Position numbers and translations under genes: made by a program. DNA of 64,000 nucleotides from Janibacter indicus (GTDB lineage Bacteria > Actinomycetota > Actinomycetes > Actinomycetales > Dermatophilaceae): NCBI RefSeq assembly GCF_900176385.1, contig NZ_FWXN01000012.1, forward strand, positions 1 to 64,000, written 5' to 3'. Below, piece after piece: positions 55,007 through 64,000 of the stretch (the first letter of the stretch is position 1; each line of letters starts with the position of its first letter). The notes below the pieces were generated by a model. It ran no database searches. It saw nothing but the letters and a program-made list of their open reading frames with translations, and was not told the DNA's origin.

Positions 55007-55966
55007 TCAGCTCGCCTTCTTCTTCGCGGCCGTCTTCTTCGCAGCAGACTTCTTGGCCGTGGACTTCTTGGCCGTGGACTTCTTTGCGGCGGTCTTCTTC
55101 GTCGCCGCCTTCTTCGCGGGGGCCTTCGTGGCGGTCGACTTCTTCGCGGGGGTCTTCGTGGCCACCGGCGCCGACGTCGAGGAGCTCTCGCCCCGGGCGG
55201 TCTTGGCCTTCTCGACCGAGCGGGCGAGGGCAGCGAGCAGGTCGACGACCTCGCCGGACTCCTCCTCGTCGGCCGCGACCTGCTGGACCTCTCCCCCGTC
55301 GACCTTGGCCTTGACGAGAGCCTCGACGGCGAGCGCGTAGTCGTCCTCGAACTCGTCGGGGTCGTAGTCGCCGGCGAGTTCGTCGATGAGCATTCGCGCC
55401 ATCGACATCTCCTTGTCCGACAGCTCCTGGTCCTCGACGCTCGCGAAGTCGGCCGCGCGGATCTCGTCGGGCCACAGCATCGTCTGCATGACGATGACCC
55501 CGTCGCGCACGCGCAGCACGGCCATCGTCATCCGGCTGCGGATCGAGACGGTGACGACCGCCATGCGCCCCTGCGCCTCGAGCGCCTCACGGAGCAGGAC
55601 GTAGGGCTTGGTCGCGGTCTTGTCCGGCTCGAGGTAGTAGCTCTTGTCGAGGAGCATCGGGTCGATCTGGTCCTCGGGCACGAATTTTTCGACGCTGATC
55701 TCCTTGTTGCTGCGCGTCGGCAGGTCGGCCATGTCCTCGTCGGTGAGGATGATCATCTGACCGTCCTCGGTCTCGTAGCCCTTGGCGATGTCGTCGTAGG
55801 CGACCTCGTCGCCGTCGATGCTGCAGAAGCGCTTGTAGCGGATACGGCCACCGTCGGTGCGGTGCACCTGCCGGAACTGCACGTCGTGGTTTTCGGTCGC
55901 GGAGTACAGCCGGACCGGGACGTTGACCAGGCCGAAGGAGACGGCACCCTTCCAGATCGCGCGCAT
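55007..55966 (-). CDS. ku: non-homologous end-joining protein Ku
   Basis: 319 residues. Ku core from RAIWKGAVSFGLVNVPVRLYSATENHDV through FVPEDQIDPMLLDKSYYLEP and EIRAADFASVEDQELSDKEMSMARMLID; then a lysine/alanine tail (KKAATKKTAAKKSTAKKSTAKK) of ~50 residues, known in several actinobacterial Ku proteins to hold DNA. Binds double-strand ends for LigD, which is not in this window. TAGGCT six bases before the ATG: leaderless ku-nei2 transcript. Confidence 0.96.
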   Translation of the reverse strand: MRAIWKGAVSFGLVNVPVRLYSATENHDVQFRQVHRTDGGRIRYKRFCSIDGDEVAYDDIAKGYETEDGQMIILTDEDMADLPTRSNKEISVEKFVPEDQIDPMLLDKSYYLEPDKTATKPYVLLREALEAQGRMAVVTVSIRSRMTMAVLRVRDGVIVMQTMLWPDEIRAADFASVEDQELSDKEMSMARMLIDELAGDYDPDEFEDDYALAVEALVKAKVDGGEVQQVAADEEESGEVVDLLAALARSVEKAKTARGESSSTSAPVATKTPAKKSTATKAPAKKAATKKTAAKKSTAKKSTAKKSAAKKTAAKKKAS

Positions 55967-56006: not shown

Positions 56007-56942
56007 GTGGCCCAGGGGGGCACCTCGCCACCGGACGAAGGTCCGACCATGCCTCGTCGCGTCACCACCATCGCCTCGCTCGCCACCGCGGCCCTCGCCG
56101 GGGTCGCCCTGACCTCCGCCCCGGCCACGGCGGCACCCACCGCCACCACTGGAGTGCCCGGCGTGCCCTACAGCTGCCAGGCGAGCCTGCGCGCCTACAG
56201 CAGCACCGGCTCCCTCGCCTGGTACGAGTACTCCAAGGGGACCGCCAAGAGCCTGCGCGTCGGCAAGAACAGCCTCGGCTGGCAGCCGACCGCGGCCCAG
56301 CAGGTGGGCGCCGGCGGCGACCCGACGAGCTTCTTCAGCACCGAGGTCGCCACGTCCAAGGGCGGCAAGCTCATGCAGATCAAGCAGAACGGCAAGCTCA
56401 GCAACGGAGCATGGTCGGTGACCCAGTCCGCGACCACGCTGCGGTCCAGCGGCTGGACCGGTACCCGGGCCCTGGTCGCGAGCTACGGCGGGTACCTCTA
56501 CCGCCTCCACGGCAGCACCCTCACCCGCTACAAGCAGGGCGCCTGGGTCGACGGCAAGCTGACCCTCTCCGGCGGGTCGCGTGTGGGCACCAACTGGGGC
56601 GGCGTGCGCTCCATGGTCTACGAGCGCACCGGTGTCGTCTCCGGTCGCACCATCGACGTCTTCCTCGCCAACGACACCTCGGGCCGGCTCGTCGAGTACC
56701 GGATCCCGCGCACCGAGCCCGCGAAGTGGACCCGCACGGTGCTGCGCTCCACCGGCTTCAAGAGCGTGCGTGCCCTGACGACCTCACCGTGCGGGAGCAG
56801 CGGCCGGGCGATCGGTGCGATCACCGACACCGACACGATGTACGTCTGGTACGACCCCAAGGTCTCCGACCTCAAGGGTGGGGACATCCGTGGAGGCTGG
56901 ACCGGCAAGCGCGGCTTCTCGCGCGCCGCCTTCGGCCAGTGA
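56007..56942 (+). CDS. secreted protein with tachylectin-like repeats, unknown function
   Basis: 311 residues from GTG 56007 or 297 from ATG 56049. A signal peptide follows the ATG (RRVTTIASLATAALAGVALTSAPATA). The mature part repeats short Tyr/Trp units: LAWYEYSKGTAKSLRVGKN, LMQIKQNGKLSNGAWSV, YLYRLHGSTLTRYKQGAWV, RLVEYRIPRTEPAKW, MYVWYDPK; this resembles tachylectin-type propeller lectins, but I am not sure. TAGGAT seven bases before the GTG argues for the longer leaderless form; GAAGG seven bases before the ATG argues for the shorter. Confidence 0.7.
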   Translation: MAQGGTSPPDEGPTMPRRVTTIASLATAALAGVALTSAPATAAPTATTGVPGVPYSCQASLRAYSSTGSLAWYEYSKGTAKSLRVGKNSLGWQPTAAQQVGAGGDPTSFFSTEVATSKGGKLMQIKQNGKLSNGAWSVTQSATTLRSSGWTGTRALVASYGGYLYRLHGSTLTRYKQGAWVDGKLTLSGGSRVGTNWGGVRSMVYERTGVVSGRTIDVFLANDTSGRLVEYRIPRTEPAKWTRTVLRSTGFKSVRALTTSPCGSSGRAIGAITDTDTMYVWYDPKVSDLKGGDIRGGWTGKRGFSRAAFGQ

Positions 56943-57004: not shown

Positions 57005-58216
57005 CTATGACGCGCGTCGGGCGAGCGCCTCCGCCACCACGTGCTCGGCGATCGCCAGCGCCGAGGTCGCCCCGGGCGAGGGCGCGTTGCGCACGAGCAC
57101 GACCCGGTCGGTGCCGGTTATGACGAAGTCGTCGACGAGCCGACCGTCGGCACCCATCGCCTGGGCGCGCACCCCACGGGTGCCCCGCACCGCGCCGGAG
57201 GTGTCGAGCGCCGGCACGTACCTGCGGGCCTCGGCGACGAACTGCCGCCAGCTGAGCGCGGTGCGCGACTCCCGCACCGCGGCCGCGAGGTTGCCCGCGG
57301 CGAAGCGCCAGAAGCCGCTGAAGCCCACGACGTCGAGCACGTCGGCGGGCACCGGGAGGGTGCGCCGGTAGGACTCCCGCCCCAGCGACAGAAAGGCATT
57401 GGGCCCCAGCGTCAGCACCCCGTCGACGCGCGGCGTGACGTGCACACCGAGGAAGGGGTAGCGCGGGTCCGGCACCGGGTAGACCATGCCGCGCACGACG
57501 TCACGCTGTTCGCGCGGCAGGACGAAGTAGTCCCCGTAGAAGGGCACGATGCGCGGGGTTCGGTCCTCGCCGAGCAGACCCGCCAGGCGGTCGCTCTGCA
57601 GGCCGCCGCACACGACGACCAGGTCGTACTCGTTGCCGTCTCGTGCCCCCTTCGCCGTCGTCGTCACCCGCACGCCGGTGCCGGTGTCGGCCAGCCCGAC
57701 GACCTCGTGGCCCAGGCGCAGCCGACCACCGGCGGCAGTGAGCTCGGCCGCGAGCGCCCGGGTGACGGCCGGGTAGTCGACGATCGCCGTCTGCGGCGAG
57801 TGCAGCGCGCGCACACCGGTGGCGGCCGGCTCGATCTCGCGCAGCCCGTCGGCGTCGACGAGGCGCGCGCCGGGCACGCCGTTGGCCACGGCGCGGGCGT
57901 GCAGGTCGTCGAGCCGGGCCGCCTGCACCGCGTCGAGGGCGACGACGACCTTGCCGCACTCGTCGTAGGCGATGTCGTGCCGCTGCACGAAGTCCTGCAG
58001 CAGACCCACCCCGCGCCGGCACAGCGTCGCCTTGAGGCTGCCCGGCTCGTAGTACAGACCCGCGTGGACGACCCCGCTGTTGTGCCCGGTCTGGTGGGCG
58101 GCGAGGTGCTCCTCCTTGTCGAGCAGGGTCACCTCGGCGTCGTGCTCGGTGGCCAGGTGCCGCGCGACGGCGGTGCCGATGATCCCGCCGCCGACGACGG
58201 CCGCGCGCAGGGTCAC
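57005..58216 (-). CDS. lhgO: L-2-hydroxyglutarate oxidase
   Basis: 403 residues, DAO-type flavoprotein: AAVVGGGIIGTAVARHLA, the LhgO signatures HQTGHNSGVVHAGLYYEPGS, LGVHVTPRVDGVLTLGPNAFLS and the closing VRNAPSPGATSALAIAEHV. Oxidises L-2-hydroxyglutarate to 2-oxoglutarate, passing electrons to quinones in known cases. In the lysine/glutarate route it follows the hydroxylase CsiD, which is not in this window. GTG start overlapping the CoA-transferase stop (GTGA). Last gene of the TRAP operon. Confidence 0.92.
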   Translation of the reverse strand: MTLRAAVVGGGIIGTAVARHLATEHDAEVTLLDKEEHLAAHQTGHNSGVVHAGLYYEPGSLKATLCRRGVGLLQDFVQRHDIAYDECGKVVVALDAVQAARLDDLHARAVANGVPGARLVDADGLREIEPAATGVRALHSPQTAIVDYPAVTRALAAELTAAGGRLRLGHEVVGLADTGTGVRVTTTAKGARDGNEYDLVVVCGGLQSDRLAGLLGEDRTPRIVPFYGDYFVLPREQRDVVRGMVYPVPDPRYPFLGVHVTPRVDGVLTLGPNAFLSLGRESYRRTLPVPADVLDVVGFSGFWRFAAGNLAAAVRESRTALSWRQFVAEARRYVPALDTSGAVRGTRGVRAQAMGADGRLVDDFVITGTDRVVLVRNAPSPGATSALAIAEHVVAEALARRAS

Positions 58217-59343
58217 GACTCGCTCCGCGGGACGAAGGGGGGCGGCGCCGTCCGGTAGGCCGCAGGCGTGCGCGAGAGGCTGATCGGGTTGGCGATCGTC
58301 GCGACGGATCCGCCTGCGGCGGAAGGGACTTCGCGCACCGGGTCGAGGTCGAGCCGCCGGGCGAGGTCGAAGGCCTGACCGAGGTCGTTGATCGGCCCGC
58401 AGGGCACCCCCTGCGCCGAGAGCACGTCGAACCAGTGGTCCGCGCCGTGCCCGGCGAGGGCGTCCTCGAGCTCCGCCGCGAGCACCGCCCGGTGGGCCAC
58501 CCGGTCGGCATTGCTCCCGAAGCGCGGGTCGTCGGCGAGCTCGGGCCGACCGACGGCCTGCGCGAGCAGACGGAAGAGCTTGTCGTTGGCCGCCGCGATC
58601 GCCACCGGGCGATCGGCCGTCGCGAGCACCTCGTAGGGCGCGATGCTCGGGTGCAGGTTGCCCATGGCCTGCGGCACCGCGCCGGTGACTGCGTGGGTCG
58701 AGGCCTGGTTGGACATCGCGGACAGGACCGACGACAGCAGGTTGACCTCGACCCGCTGCCCCTCCCCCGTGCGGTCACGGTGACGCAGCGCGGCGAGGAC
58801 CCCGATCGTCGCGTGCAGGCCGGTGACGATGTCGACGAGGGCGACGCCGGACTTCATCGGACCCGAGTCCGCCGACCCGGTCACCGACATCAGCCCGCCG
58901 ACCGCCTGGGCGACGAGGTCGTAGCCGGGCAGGTCTGCACCGGCACCGGAACCGAAGCCGGTCACCGAGCAGTAGACGAGCCCGGGGTGCCGGGCGGACA
59001 GCTCGTCGTAGCCGAGGCCGAGCCGCTCCATCGTGCCGCTGCGGAAGTTTTCCACGACGACATCACACCCGGTGACGAGCTCGAGCGCCACCTCGCGGTC
59101 CTGCGGCGACCGCAGGTCGAGCACCCGGGAGGTCTTGTTGCGGTTGACCGAGAGGAAGTACGTCGACTCCCCCTCGTCCGACCAGGGCGGCCCCCACGCC
59201 CTGGTCTCGTCACCGCCGTCCGGGCGCTCGACCTTGATCACCTCCGCCCCGAGGTCGGCCATGAGCATGGTCGCGTAGGGCGCCGCCAGCACGCGGCTGA
59301 AGTCGGCGATCCGCACGCCCTCGAGGGCACCGGGGGTGATCAA
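58213..59343 (-). CDS. class III (CaiB/BaiF) CoA-transferase
   Basis: 376 residues. GVRIADFSRVLAAPYATMLMADLGAEVIKVE, NRNKTSRVLDL, VVENFRSGTMERLGLGYDEL and the active-site Asp in LPGYDLVAQAVGGLMSVTG are standard for family III transferases such as formyl-CoA and succinyl-CoA:glutarate CoA-transferases. Beside a glutaryl-CoA dehydrogenase-like gene the natural reading is glutarate activation. The start is uncertain: I use TTG 59343, which overlaps the dehydrogenase stop (TTGA) and gives the usual family N-terminus. Confidence 0.88.
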   Translation of the reverse strand: MITPGALEGVRIADFSRVLAAPYATMLMADLGAEVIKVERPDGGDETRAWGPPWSDEGESTYFLSVNRNKTSRVLDLRSPQDREVALELVTGCDVVVENFRSGTMERLGLGYDELSARHPGLVYCSVTGFGSGAGADLPGYDLVAQAVGGLMSVTGSADSGPMKSGVALVDIVTGLHATIGVLAALRHRDRTGEGQRVEVNLLSSVLSAMSNQASTHAVTGAVPQAMGNLHPSIAPYEVLATADRPVAIAAANDKLFRLLAQAVGRPELADDPRFGSNADRVAHRAVLAAELEDALAGHGADHWFDVLSAQGVPCGPINDLGQAFDLARRLDLDPVREVPSAAGGSVATIANPISLSRTPAAYRTAPPPFVPRSES

Positions 59344-60515
59344 CGGAAGGCGGCCTCTCCGGTCAGGGCCCGTCCGATGACGAGCTGGTGGACCTCGCTC
59401 GTGCCCTCGTAGGTGAGGACCGACTCGAGGTTGTTGGCGTGCCGCATGATCGGGTGCTCCAGCGTGATGCCGGCGGCGCCGAGGATCGTGCGGGACTCGC
59501 GGGCGATGGCGATGGCCTCGCGCACGTTGTTGAGCTTGCCGAGCGAGACCTGCTCGGGAGCGATCCTCCCTTCGTCCTTGAGCCGGGCGATCTGCAGGGC
59601 CAGCAGCATGCCCTTGCCGAGCTCCAGCGACATGTCCGCCAGCTTCGCCTGGGTCAGCTGGTAGGCCGCCAGCGGCTTGTCGAAGATCTCCCGCTCGCGC
59701 GAGTAGCGGATCGCCGTCTCGAGGCAGTCGCGGGCCGCACCGAGCGCACCGAAGACGATCCCGAAGCGCGCCTCGTTGAGGCACGAGAGCGGACCCGAGA
59801 GCCCAGCCACCTCCGGCAGCACCGCCTCCGCGGGCAGCCGCACGTCGTCGAGGACGAGCTCACTCGTCACCGACGCCCGCAGCGACACCTTGCGCTTGAT
59901 CTCCGGGGCGGAGAACCCCGGCGTGTCCGTCGGCACGACGAACCCGCGGACCTTGTCCTCGGTCTGCGCCCACACGACGGCCACGTCGGCGACCGACCCG
60001 TTGGTGATCCACATCTTGCTGCCGTTGAGCACCCAGTCGTCGCCATCTCGGCGCGCGCGCGTGCGCATGCCCGCCGGGTTGGACCCGAAGTCCGGCTCGG
60101 TGAGCCCGAAGCAGCCGATCGCCTCACCGGCGGCCATCCGCGGCAGCCACTCCTGCTTCTGCTCCTCGCTGCCGTGCTTCCAGATGGCAAACATCGCGAG
60201 CGACCCCTGCACCGACACGAGCGAGCGCAGACCGGAGTCACCGGCCTCGAGCTCCATGCACGCCAGCCCGTAGGCCGTCGCGGAGGTCCCGGAGCAGCCG
60301 TATCCCTCCAGGTGCATCCCGAGGACACCGAGGCGGCCTAGCTCCGGCGCGAGCTCCCGGACGGGGAAGGAGCCCTGCTCGTACCAGTCGGCGATCCCCG
60401 GGCGGATCCGGTCATCCACGAAGCGCTTGACCGTGTCCCGGATCGCCCGGTCCTCCTCCCCGATCAGGTCGTCGGTCGCGAAGAGCCCGAGCGGGCTCTG
60501 GGCGGTGGTGCTCAC
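59340..60515 (-). CDS. glutaryl-CoA dehydrogenase-like acyl-CoA dehydrogenase
   Basis: 391 residues. SGLRSLVSVQGSLAMFAIWKHGSEEQKQEWLPRM, CFGLTEPDFGSNPAGM (FAD), NGSKMWITNGSVADV, and the end TYEGTSEVHQLVIGRALTGEAAF, where the catalytic Glu is that of the GCDH branch. Known members oxidise and decarboxylate glutaryl-CoA to crotonyl-CoA; a related branch only dehydrogenates, so decarboxylation is inferred. GTG start overlapping the binding-protein stop. Confidence 0.9.
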   Translation of the reverse strand: MSTTAQSPLGLFATDDLIGEEDRAIRDTVKRFVDDRIRPGIADWYEQGSFPVRELAPELGRLGVLGMHLEGYGCSGTSATAYGLACMELEAGDSGLRSLVSVQGSLAMFAIWKHGSEEQKQEWLPRMAAGEAIGCFGLTEPDFGSNPAGMRTRARRDGDDWVLNGSKMWITNGSVADVAVVWAQTEDKVRGFVVPTDTPGFSAPEIKRKVSLRASVTSELVLDDVRLPAEAVLPEVAGLSGPLSCLNEARFGIVFGALGAARDCLETAIRYSREREIFDKPLAAYQLTQAKLADMSLELGKGMLLALQIARLKDEGRIAPEQVSLGKLNNVREAIAIARESRTILGAAGITLEHPIMRHANNLESVLTYEGTSEVHQLVIGRALTGEAAFR

Positions 60516-61501
60516 TTGGCCTCCTCGAGGGCGCGCTCCGAGCCGTCGTGCAGCGGGACCGGGCCGGTCTCGGTCATCGTCTCGGCGTCGATCTCCTCGG
60601 CGGCCGGGTGCACCTGCACCAGGGCCTCCTTCTCGTCGATCATCAGGGTGGTGAGGGCGCAGGCGACGTTGTCCTCCATGTCCTCGCGCACGACGATGAC
60701 GTTGGGGACGGAGATCGTCGGGACGTCCTCCGACAGGTCGTAGGTGTCGGCCGGGATCGAGGCCTCCTCGTAGACCTCGTTGACCTTCTGCATGTCCTTC
60801 AGCTGACCGGTGATGTCGATGAACTCGACGTCGTCACCCATCGAGGTGAAGAGGTCGGTGATGGCCGGCGTGGGCAGACCACCGGACCAGACGAGGCCGT
60901 CGATCGAGCCGTCCTTCATCCCGTCGACGGTCTTGGTCAGGTCGAGCCGCTGGCGCTTGACGTCCTTGAGGTCGAGGCCGGCGGTCTCGATGAGCCGGTT
61001 GGCGATGACCTCGGTGCCGGACTTCGGCGAGCCGGTCGAGATCGTCTTGCCCTTGAAGTCCTTGACGCTGTCGATGTCGGCGCCCTTGCGCACGACGACC
61101 TGGGTGTAGTTGTCGTAGACGCGGCCGAGGGTGCGGATGTCCTGCTTCTCGGTGAAGGAGCCGGTGCCGTTGACGGCGTCGGCGGCGGTGTCGGCGAGCG
61201 AGAAGCCGGCGTCGTAGTCACCGGCGACGACCTGCTGGATGTTCTGCACCGACGCGCCGGTCTCGGCGGACGAGGCCTGCAGGTCGGTCTTGTCGTTGAC
61301 GAGCTTGGCCAGCCCGCCCCCGATGACGTAGTAGACGCCGGTGGAGTTGCCGGTCGCGATGTTGAGCCGGCCCTGGCCGGTCTCGCAGCTCTCGGCGTCA
61401 GCGCCGGAGTCGCCGCTGCGGTCCTGCTGGCCGCCGCAGGCGGACAGGGCGAGGGCGGCGGCCATGGTCAGTCCGGTGAGGGTGGTGGTACGGCGCATCA
61501 T
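60512..61501 (-). CDS. TAXI family TRAP transporter solute-binding lipoprotein
   Basis: 329 residues: signal peptide with lipobox ALALSACGG, then LNIATGNSTGVYYVIGGGLAKLVND (the TAXI opening, TGxxxGxYY), ETGASVQNIQQVVAGDYDAGFSLAD and ISTGSPKSGTEVIANRLIE. TAXI proteins bind small acids; characterised ones bind glutamate or 2-oxoglutarate. AAAGG precedes the ATG pair by four bases. It overlaps the dehydrogenase gene and follows the permease by 50 bases. Confidence 0.94.
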   Translation of the reverse strand: MMRRTTTLTGLTMAAALALSACGGQQDRSGDSGADAESCETGQGRLNIATGNSTGVYYVIGGGLAKLVNDKTDLQASSAETGASVQNIQQVVAGDYDAGFSLADTAADAVNGTGSFTEKQDIRTLGRVYDNYTQVVVRKGADIDSVKDFKGKTISTGSPKSGTEVIANRLIETAGLDLKDVKRQRLDLTKTVDGMKDGSIDGLVWSGGLPTPAITDLFTSMGDDVEFIDITGQLKDMQKVNEVYEEASIPADTYDLSEDVPTISVPNVIVVREDMEDNVACALTTLMIDEKEALVQVHPAAEEIDAETMTETGPVPLHDGSERALEEAK

Positions 61502-61551
61502 CGAGCCTTTCGTGGTGGTGGTGTGGCGGTGCCCGGACGGGCGAAGGGAGA

Positions 61552-63714
61552 TCACGTTGCGGGGGTCGGGTGGGAGCCCCGGACCATCCGTCGCCGCACG
61601 AGGTGCAGCACGACGGCGACCGCGAAGACGGCATAGCCCAGGGCGATGGACGTGGGGACGAGGTAGAGCAGGAGGAAGGCCGCGGGTACGCACAGGGCGC
61701 GCTCGAGCAGGCTGGTCGGCCCGAACATCCAGCCGGTCGTCGCGACCGCGAGGGCCGCAACCGCGCTCCCGGCGACGAGGAAGGTCCACAGGATGTCGAC
61801 GAGGCTGCCCTGCGACAGCAGGTGCGAGCCGCTGTCGGTGACGACGAAGGCCATCGGGGCGAGGAAGGCCGGCAGCGTGTACTTGCAGGCCTGGATCATC
61901 GTCGGGATGACCTTGCCCCCGGTGATCGCCGCCGAGGCGACCGCGGCGAGGGCGGTCGGCGGCGAGACCTCGGACAGGACGGCGTAGTAGAAGATGAACA
62001 TCGCGACCGGAGCCGGCTCCACGCCGAGCGCGATCAGCGCAGGCCCGATGATCACCCAGCTGAGGATGAAGGACGCGGTGACCGGGACCGCGAGGCCCAG
62101 GATGAGGATCGCGATGGCGGAGAAGAGCGCCGACAGCACGATGAGCGAGGCGTCGTTGAAGGCGATCGCGTCGGCCGCCTGGACGAGGACGTCGGAGAGG
62201 ATCTGGCCCAGTCCGGTCTTGGCGATCACCGAGGTGATGACGCCGGCCGCGGCGCAGACCGCGATGACCGGCAGCGCGGAGCGGATGCCCGAGCTCAGCG
62301 CGCCGTAGAGGCGCCTGCCGTAGTCCTTGAGCGAGTCCGACAGCTCGAGTCGCTCGAGGTCCACGTCGTGGTCGTCGAAGCCGCTCACGACCCGGCGCCG
62401 CGACAGGAGCGACTCGGCCAGGCCGAAGAGCGCAGCCACCGCCGTCGCGTAGACGACCGCCTTGAAGGGCGGGACGTCGATGGCGAGGAAGAAGACGATG
62501 ACGCCGAGGCTGATGAAGTGGTAGCCGGACCGGGCGAGGAGGCGAAGGGGGTTGACGATCGCCAGCTCGACGCGGCTGGCCCCGAAGCGGCGGGCGTCGA
62601 TCTCGACGGCGAAGAAGATGCCGAGGTAGTACAGCAGCGTCGGGACGATCGCCCAGATGAGCACCTCGACGTAGGAGACGCCCAGGTACTCGGCGATGAT
62701 GAAGGCCGCGGCGCCCATCGTCGGCGGCGAGAGGATCGCGCCGATGCCGGCCGCAGCGAGCATGCCACCGGCGGCCTCCTTGGGGTAGCCGGCACGCTTG
62801 AGGATCGGCCAGGCGAAGGAACCGAGCGTCACCGCGGTCGCGGTGCCCGACCCGGAGACGGTGCCGAGCAGGAAGCCGGAGAGGGCGGTCGTGCGCCCCG
62901 GGGCGGAGGCGGACTTGCGGAAGAGCGAGAAGCTGAACTCGACGAAGAAGCGTCCGGCGCCCATCCGGTCGAGGACCGCGCCGTACATCGTGAAGAGCAC
63001 GATGTACGTCGCCGCGACGTCGAGGGGGACGCCGAAGAATCCGGAGGCCTCGTTGAACAGGGCGTTGATGATCTGCTCGATGTTCAGGCCGAGGTGGCTG
63101 ATCGACCAGCTGACCGGCAGGAACCCGCCGTAGTAGGCGTAGGCGAAGAAGACGAGGCAGACGACGGGCAGCACGAGGCCGGTCGTGCGGCGGGTGGCCT
63201 CGAGGACGAGGACCATGAGGATCATGCCGGCGACGATGTCCATCATCAGCAGCGAGCCCTGACGGTCGAGGAAGCCCTCGTAGCCGCCGAAGCCGAGGTC
63301 GCTCAGCGGGATCGGCAGGATCGGGTAGAGCCCGACGAGCATCGCCAGACCGGCGAGCACCCAGTCGAGGATCCCGGGGTTGTCCGTCGCGGCACGGCGA
63401 CCGACGGTGTCGGTGCCGGGGTCGATGTCGGCGGCCCGCTCCCTTCGCCCGCGCATCCGGTAGGTGAGGAAGACGAGCGGCAGGGTCACCGCGAGGAAGA
63501 TCACGAGGTAGTACTGGCTGCCCTGCTCGACGGGGTCGAAGACCTGCTTGAGCACGAAGAGCGCGACGAGGAAGCACCAGGCCCCCACCAAGAGCTCGAG
63601 GCGCGGCGAGAGGTGGCGCGAGGGCTTCTCCTCGTCGTAGTCGGCGACGATGTCGTCGACGTCGACGGGCTCGGGGGTGAGCTGCTGCTCACGGGCGACG
63701 CTGTCCGTTGGCAT
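61552..63714 (-). CDS. TRAP transporter fused permease (DctQM type)
   Basis: 720 residues, with about 16-18 helices: a 4-helix DctQ-like part (residues ~45-250) fused to the large DctM domain (GFLLGTVSGSGTATAVTLGSFAWPILKRAGYPKEAAGGMLAAAGIGAILSPP, GLAVPVTASFILSWVIIGPAL, AMFIFYYAVLSEVSPPTALAA). Fused 4TM-12TM permeases are the usual partners of TAXI proteins. Uses a sodium or proton gradient to import the solute. TACGTT seven bases before the ATG suggests a leaderless operon mRNA, divergent from the response regulator. Confidence 0.95.
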   Translation of the reverse strand: MPTDSVAREQQLTPEPVDVDDIVADYDEEKPSRHLSPRLELLVGAWCFLVALFVLKQVFDPVEQGSQYYLVIFLAVTLPLVFLTYRMRGRRERAADIDPGTDTVGRRAATDNPGILDWVLAGLAMLVGLYPILPIPLSDLGFGGYEGFLDRQGSLLMMDIVAGMILMVLVLEATRRTTGLVLPVVCLVFFAYAYYGGFLPVSWSISHLGLNIEQIINALFNEASGFFGVPLDVAATYIVLFTMYGAVLDRMGAGRFFVEFSFSLFRKSASAPGRTTALSGFLLGTVSGSGTATAVTLGSFAWPILKRAGYPKEAAGGMLAAAGIGAILSPPTMGAAAFIIAEYLGVSYVEVLIWAIVPTLLYYLGIFFAVEIDARRFGASRVELAIVNPLRLLARSGYHFISLGVIVFFLAIDVPPFKAVVYATAVAALFGLAESLLSRRRVVSGFDDHDVDLERLELSDSLKDYGRRLYGALSSGIRSALPVIAVCAAAGVITSVIAKTGLGQILSDVLVQAADAIAFNDASLIVLSALFSAIAILILGLAVPVTASFILSWVIIGPALIALGVEPAPVAMFIFYYAVLSEVSPPTALAAVASAAITGGKVIPTMIQACKYTLPAFLAPMAFVVTDSGSHLLSQGSLVDILWTFLVAGSAVAALAVATTGWMFGPTSLLERALCVPAAFLLLYLVPTSIALGYAVFAVAVVLHLVRRRMVRGSHPTPAT

Positions 63715-63815
63715 GCCGGGTAACGTAGGTGCGATTCAGGTCACACACAGCCGAGGCCCGGCGGACTTTACATACATCTGACCTTGGGCCCGGACCGAGC
63801 GCCGATCGAGGAGAC

Positions 63816-64000
63816 ATGCGAGTCCTGCTCGTCGAGGACGACGACCGGGTGGTGGCGGCACTCACCCCCGCCCTGCGCCGCGCGCACCTCACCGTGATCC
63901 GCGCGGGCACCGCGGCCGAGGCGGTCGAGGCCGCTCCCGGGGCCGACCTGGTCCTGCTCGACATGGGGCTGCCCGACCAGGACGGCCTGACCGTCTGCCG
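63816..64000 (+). CDS. response regulator receiver domain, cut by the window edge
   Basis: The first 61 residues of a receiver: VLLVEDDDRV (acidic pocket) and DLVLLDMGLPDQDGLTV, with the phosphorylated Asp at about residue 49. The output domain is outside the window. GAGGAG lies four bases before the ATG. It is divergent from the TRAP operon, as two-component systems that control TRAP transporters often are, so it is the best candidate regulator; the kinase should be just to the right. Confidence 0.85.
   Translation, partial: MRVLLVEDDDRVVAALTPALRRAHLTVIRAGTAAEAVEAAPGADLVLLDMGLPDQDGLTVC

Follow-up and report, generated by a model that had tools for sequence, protein, structure and literature searches.

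A conserved two-component, TAXI-TRAP and glutaryl-CoA dehydrogenase module in Janibacter indicus, a candidate system for glutarate uptake and oxidation

In Pseudomonas putida KT2440 and Escherichia coli, glutarate catabolism has been described as comprising two branches, one in which glutaryl-CoA dehydrogenase (GCDH) leads to crotonyl-CoA and one in which L-2-hydroxyglutarate, supplied by CsiD, is converted by LhgO to 2-oxoglutarate (PMC5974017, PMC6265302). For bacteria that possess LhgO and lack CsiD, metabolite repair has been proposed (PMC5974017). Uptake of the acid has been reported more recently; according to the report on KgtP (2025), the literature had until then described no microbial transporter for glutarate uptake (PMC12622518). 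Among TAXI solute-binding proteins, the glutamate-binding VcGluP is reported to hold the amine of its ligand with the side chains of Y45, Q93 and E125, of which Y45 and Q93 weigh most (PMC11574862), and a TAXI-TRAP transporter of Proteus mirabilis has been found to take 2-oxoglutarate and 2-hydroxyglutarate (PMC12344293). In Streptomyces coelicolor the two-component system GluR-GluK controls gluABCD. Glutamate is reported to be bound directly by GluK (PMC9739842), an argument against the requirement of a binding protein in that system.

Here, we describe a computational analysis of a locus in Janibacter indicus that an earlier note, made from the sequence alone, had read as an operon joining a TAXI-TRAP importer to both branches of glutarate breakdown. 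The window, by which we mean the whole stretch of DNA analysed, comprises 64,000 nucleotides and lies within a contig of 149,620 bases; the genome measures 3.42 Mb. Five minus-strand genes form one run, with a gap of 50 bases between the TRAP permease and TAXI genes and a 4-base overlap at each of the last three junctions (TAXI/dehydrogenase, dehydrogenase/CoA-transferase and CoA-transferase/LhgO). Their coordinates and family matches agree with the earlier description of overlapping or nearly touching genes, and the divergent response regulator described beside them is confirmed. The kinase sought to the right of the window was found directly after the regulator gene. The features of the locus, in the numbering of the window, are as follows:

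55007-55966, minus strand: Ku
about 56044-56942, plus strand: open reading frame downstream of LhgO
57005..58216, minus strand: L-2-hydroxyglutarate oxidase/dehydrogenase LhgO (NF008726, 490 bits against a cut-off of 299; GTG start)
58213..59343, minus strand: class III CoA-transferase, probably acting on glutarate (PF02515, 425 bits; TTG start)
59340..60515, minus strand: GCDH (640 bits to 3swo, 379 bits to human GCDH, 1siq)
60512..61501, minus strand: TAXI solute-binding lipoprotein of the importer (TIGR02122, 282 bits against a cut-off of 84; pocket residues; TRAP-linked side of the TAXI tree)
61552..63714, minus strand: TRAP transporter fused permease (TIGR02123, 411 bits against a cut-off of 321; order conserved)
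63764..63782, minus strand: candidate regulator-binding site in the divergent regulator/importer region (conserved in module intergenic regions)
63816..64000, cut by the window end and running to 64475 on the contig, plus strand: OmpR-type response regulator, RR (PF00072 and PF00486)
64478-65863, plus strand, outside the window: histidine kinase, HK (PF00512, PF00672 and PF02518)
65915-66854 (L001 9916-10855), plus strand, outside the window: transposase-like frames, recognized by eye
67359-68330 (L001 11360-12331), minus strand, outside the window: TAXI2, a second TAXI-like protein (PF16868)

The permease, the TAXI lipoprotein and LhgO clear NCBIfam cut-offs; the CoA-transferase and the dehydrogenase clear only those of Pfam families. 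With both the TAXI protein and the fused DctQM permease above cut-off (TIGR02122 and TIGR02123), the pair constitutes a TAXI-TRAP transporter, and the reading of a dedicated importer beside the divergent regulator, with a conserved site lying between the two, is supported.

The ten solved relatives that score best against the dehydrogenase (640 to 346 bits) comprise nine named GCDH and one named "acyl-CoA dehydrogenase", whereas other acyl-CoA dehydrogenase families start at 235 bits; Desulfococcus GDH (3mpi) scores 192 bits. These scores support the earlier GCDH-like assignment and reject a dehydrogenase of a non-GCDH type. Alignment with the human enzyme (1siq) reveals intact active-site residues and the conserved motifs ELEAGDSGLRS, FGLTEP and TYEGT, which we take to hold the carboxylate-binding Glu/Arg/Ser/Thr and the catalytic Glu of human GCDH. 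The protein is the sole GCDH in the genome, the next paralog standing at 35%. The best named NCBIfam model for the CoA-transferase is succinate-glutarate CoA-transferase (NF052585) at 335 bits, far below the cut-off of 750, which counts against our main reading; the protein is filed only as class III (PF02515). It is the only close CoA-transferase in the genome (next paralog 36%) and probably acts on glutarate. LhgO retains at S47, H51, Y246, L256, H259 and R350 the six residues reported to contact 2-oxoglutarate in the Drosophila enzyme (S88, H92, Y289, L299, H302 and R393; PMC10726252).

No csiD gene is present in the window, as the earlier note had observed, and the search beyond it found none in the whole Janibacter genome and no CsiD (PF08943) in any of 45 genomes (1 + 30 + 14), the E. 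coli control being positive. CsiD-dependent hydroxylation is thus ruled out for the tested genomes. Sixteen Janibacter genomes were scored for LhgO (E 1e-40) and GCDH (E 1e-90); LhgO occurs in 14 and GCDH in 10, all of which also have LhgO. Seven of these ten have the two genes within about 10 kb of one another and the other three do not, and 4 of the 14 LhgO-bearing genomes are without GCDH at the threshold used. One such genome (G012) has LhgO adjoining Ku, the site of the module in J. indicus. In a tree of 88 rows the module LhgO proteins, that of G012 included, form one clade (97/95), and those from the other arrangement of LhgO with GCDH (G005, G006, G013, G014 and Arthrobacter) lie in a separate clade of 34 rows (100/100). 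The presence of two LhgO lineages near GCDH indicates that the two genes met more than once or that LhgO was exchanged; from these arrangements a functional link between them appears likely. We also observed that the LhgO matches G004:C43:3988-5184 and G010:C1:863292-864491, both in Janibacter, contain one in-frame TGA each. The claim that one operon holds both branches is therefore right only in part: the hydroxylation branch, for which CsiD is needed, is not supported, CsiD being absent from all 45 genomes and LhgO missing from the module of G260, which belongs to another genus of the family. The absence of CsiD leaves import, side reactions or an unknown enzyme as the source of L-2-hydroxyglutarate and, together with the separability of LhgO and GCDH, recasts the claim as a glutarate module with an added L-2-hydroxyglutarate enzyme.

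The binding pocket of the importer bears on the nature of the ligand. The module TAXI keeps the tyrosine of VcGluP and has leucine in place of Q93 and asparagine in place of E125. Nine aligned TAXI proteins of the module type share Y, L and N, and two of type II have Y, V and N. The replacement of both amine-binding side chains argues against an amino acid ligand, and glutamate is accordingly disfavoured. The same L-N pocket is found in TRAP-linked TAXI proteins that have no glutarate genes nearby (L035-L038, L166 and others), and one of the nine aligned proteins (G021) likewise has these residues without such genes, so the pocket does not single out glutarate. The proposed import of glutarate or 2-hydroxyglutarate is thereby upheld with respect to a non-amino C5 ligand and not with respect to glutarate in particular. 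The precedent in Proteus makes it plausible that one importer serves several C5 acids.

The gene order TAXI2, HK, RR, TRAP-TAXI-GCDH-CoA-transferase(-LhgO) recurs in two other Janibacter genomes, in another genus of the family, where LhgO is lacking, and in Nocardioidaceae. Janibacter genomes with the locus include G007 and J. terrae NBRC 107853 (L043). All five operon genes keep their order in L033 and L034, from other Janibacter, and in L044 and L045, from Nocardioidaceae, a conservation that makes the arrangement more than chance; in L049 (Nocardioidaceae) the contig end cuts inside TAXI. Among 80 LhgO loci taken from genome contigs, a GCDH relative of at least 62% identity was found in the stretch in five (J. 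terrae, Nocardioides jiangsuensis, Nocardioidaceae UBA4001, a Nocardioides MAG and an uncultured Arthrobacter), the other GCDH matches being 28-33% identical. The full order, including LhgO, is seen in the first three; the MAG contig begins inside TAXI, and the Arthrobacter has a different order and a distant TAXI. The module of G260 retains the order without LhgO in its stretch, and this combination, limited to sensor, importer, GCDH and CoA-transferase, is exactly what glutarate would require and supports the glutarate reading. Two further loci count against it: G317 keeps the order up to GCDH and has no CoA-transferase match and no LhgO in the stretch, and G388 has sensor and importer with none of the enzymes. 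Clustering is not the default, since eight of eight other GCDH stretches of relatives (L225-L232) gave no match to CoA-transferase, LhgO, TAXI or TRAP. An importer TAXI of at least 59% identity occurs in 7 of 58 relatives, all with GCDH, and GCDH is also present in 28 of the other 51, a weak and non-independent co-occurrence that we do not count as main evidence.

The divergent region between regulator and importer spans 101 bases. The site at 63764..63782 aligns, with some variation, in all eight module intergenic regions, and the best common 19-mer of this genome and five distant ones scores 68, whereas 200 shuffled sets reached no more than 62. The genome holds one exact copy of the site; two more matches, with three mismatches, equal the number obtained with the control pattern. 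Within it, T(T/G)AC half sites are spaced by 11 bases, an arrangement known for OmpR/PhoB-type regulators. A search of 29 related RR-HK loci returned one look-alike, located in L162 at 66 bases ahead of a gene for an ABC ATPase, so that the site seems particular to the module. We regard it as a candidate regulator-binding site.

The module's second TAXI protein is encoded on the sensor side. TAXI2 lies directly beside the kinase gene in two other Janibacter genomes (489 and 6 bases), and the transposase-like insertion is therefore particular to J. indicus among the three. Here, two overlapping frames that by eye resemble an IS transposase part the kinase from TAXI2, and they were seen in no other of the three module-bearing Janibacter genomes. 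The 91 TAXI proteins compared, from 72 stretches, are a non-random sample of matches to a TAXI2 profile, of which the first 18 were mostly top-ranked. A kinase like that of the module is found no more than 1000 bases from 45 of them and a TRAP permease no more than 1300 bases from 35; no protein has both as neighbours, and 11 have neither. The TAXI tree splits without exception into 35 TRAP-linked proteins with 1 unlinked and 45 kinase-linked proteins with 10 unlinked (100/96), and the split was kept on adding 40 more TAXI regions of lower and middle rank. One of the ten is J. indicus TAXI2 itself; six others were inspected by eye, and L213, L214 and L217 have a kinase-like gene one gene away, while none was seen in the inspected part of L185, L192 and L211. 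The loci behind this observation are L001 11360-12331, L040, L153-L168 and L185-L224.

The residue at the E125 position is D or E in all 16 of the 91 TAXI proteins with a gluB-like ABC gene in the stretch, asparagine in module TAXI proteins and serine in module TAXI2 proteins. An OmpR-type regulator and a membrane kinase beside a divergent importer operon (PF00072, PF00486, PF00672, PF00512 and PF02518, with gene order) give the module a GluR-GluK-type layout; the module loci have no gluB-like match and, in TAXI2, serine rather than an acidic residue, which sets them apart from GluR-GluK proper. From linkage and phylogeny, TAXI2 may act as a co-sensor in a BctC-like role. A broader proposal, which we advance tentatively and at a little short of even odds, is that actinobacterial TAXI proteins comprise two ancient classes, TRAP transport TAXIs and sensor TAXIs, which would serve GluR-GluK-like systems as an extracytoplasmic third component and determine their ligand specificity, and that the module, with separate sensor and transport TAXIs for the same non-amino C5 acid, would be the first binding-protein-dependent system for glutarate sensing and import. 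We found no paper on TAXI proteins paired with kinases in the open-access literature. The pairing may supply a partner, perhaps the ligand-binding part, for a two-component family of many sampled actinobacterial families.

These observations lead us to propose, with a probability of about 0.58, that the locus is a substrate-induced uptake and oxidation module for a non-amino five-carbon dicarboxylate, most likely glutarate. TAXI2 would bind the acid outside the membrane and signal to the adjacent histidine kinase, and the response regulator would then turn on the importer operon by binding to the conserved site in the divergent region. The TAXI protein would hand the acid to the fused TRAP permease, the CoA-transferase would move CoA from succinyl-CoA to glutarate, and GCDH would oxidise and decarboxylate glutaryl-CoA to crotonyl-CoA. 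LhgO would convert L-2-hydroxyglutarate, probably arriving through the same importer or arising from side reactions, to 2-oxoglutarate, which could also renew succinyl-CoA.

The genes that accompany LhgO elsewhere suggest another substrate. In L044, L045, L049 and L074, DapA-like and SDR genes follow LhgO; LhgO and DapA overlap by 4 bases in L044, L074 and L039, and a DapA-like neighbour is found in 13 of the 80 LhgO loci versus 5 for GCDH; in Nocardioidaceae these genes have no place in the glutarate scheme and count against it. The imported acid might therefore be a larger or hydroxylated dicarboxylic acid handled by LhgO, a DapA-like aldolase/dehydratase, an SDR and, in some clusters, an FAH hydrolase, with the CoA-transferase and GCDH as a late branch. 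Consistent with this, module-bearing Janibacter have GntR, DapA-like and SDR genes past LigD, and G260 lacks both these and LhgO. We nevertheless consider this reading unlikely: G260 has the module and none of these genes, the DapA-like proteins of Janibacter and Nocardioides share only about 35% identity, and in seven loci (L065, L097, L103, L110, L115, L116 and L122, found in Nocardioides, mycobacteria, Actinomadura and Blastococcus) such a set includes LhgO together with a tripartite tricarboxylate (TTT) permease and a CoA-transferase and lacks a close GCDH, so the sets are separable. The only GCDH match among the seven, in L116, is at 29%; SDR and FAH matches occur in six and DapA in five, L065 ending after LhgO. 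The seven loci also hold an enoyl-CoA hydratase. We found no LhgO-DapA-SDR-FAH cluster in the open-access literature, and such clusters mark a catabolic route without a named substrate.

If instead L-2-hydroxyglutarate or 2-oxoglutarate were the main substrate, LhgO would be the main enzyme, and GCDH and the CoA-transferase would serve internally made glutarate. The intact LhgO site and the range of acids taken by the Proteus transporter (PMC12344293) fit this view; the absence of LhgO from the module stretches of G260, G317 and G388 and its occurrence without the importer in other Janibacter make it improbable. Lower still we place the idea that an unrelated enzyme hydroxylates glutarate in CsiD's stead and that both branches run. 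It would account for the repeated proximity of LhgO and GCDH, but CsiD is absent from all 45 genomes and the inspected module stretches share no hydroxylase gene, and we hold it very improbable.

The surroundings of the glutarate module suggest how it came to its present site. It lies between Ku and LigD, which are about 13 kb apart in this genome, whereas Ku and the polymerase part of LigD are about 2.9 kb apart in G004, G009 and G011, which are without the module; it thus looks like an insertion into a repair locus. Beyond TAXI2 lie LigD (contig 69290-70177, L001 13291-14178) and then a GntR regulator, a DapA-like gene and an SDR gene (contig 70174-72578, L001 14175-16579). These three are also found in G007 and G008, were not found in the G260 stretch and belong to the same families as the genes after LhgO in Nocardioidaceae. 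Taken as a whole, the results confirm the gene arrangement described earlier, support its interpretation in part as a variant on known glutarate catabolism with an unusual sensor-importer arrangement, and provide a lead to a broader sensor family. If the main reading is true, a regulated binding-protein glutarate importer equipped with a sensor of its own would be new, and it would be useful for glutarate sensing and production.

KgtP is a single permease and has no binding protein. The module would share with this E. coli protein the bringing of glutarate into the cell (PMC12622518). It has the GCDH and LhgO reactions of P. putida KT2440 and E. coli without their CsiD, and differs from the systems described there in that importer, sensor, CoA-transferase, GCDH and LhgO lie together (PMC5974017, PMC6265302). 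Phthalate uptake in denitrifiers likewise places a TAXI-TRAP transporter near a CoA-transferase that uses succinyl-CoA to activate the diacid once imported; there, the substrate is aromatic and the route is through a decarboxylase, and the available text of that report mentions neither GCDH nor LhgO (PMC13040137). With VcGluP and the Proteus mirabilis TAXI the importer shares its fold family and key tyrosine, and it departs from them in the leucine and asparagine at Q93 and E125 (PMC11574862, PMC12344293). The likeness to GluR-GluK/gluABCD of S. coelicolor, one of domains and gene order, lies in an OmpR-type regulator and kinase beside a divergent operon for a C5-acid importer, which is an ABC glutamate importer there and TAXI-TRAP in Janibacter (PMC9739842, PMC10345050); in our sample, GluR-GluK-like loci carry a gluB-like ABC gene and, next to the kinase, a TAXI gene. 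The nearest precedent for a binding protein in signalling is BctC-BctDE of Bordetella, in which a solute-binding protein takes part in two-component signalling; BctC is of the TctC type and serves both transport and signalling, whereas Janibacter TAXI2 is separate from the transport TAXI (PMC5812351).
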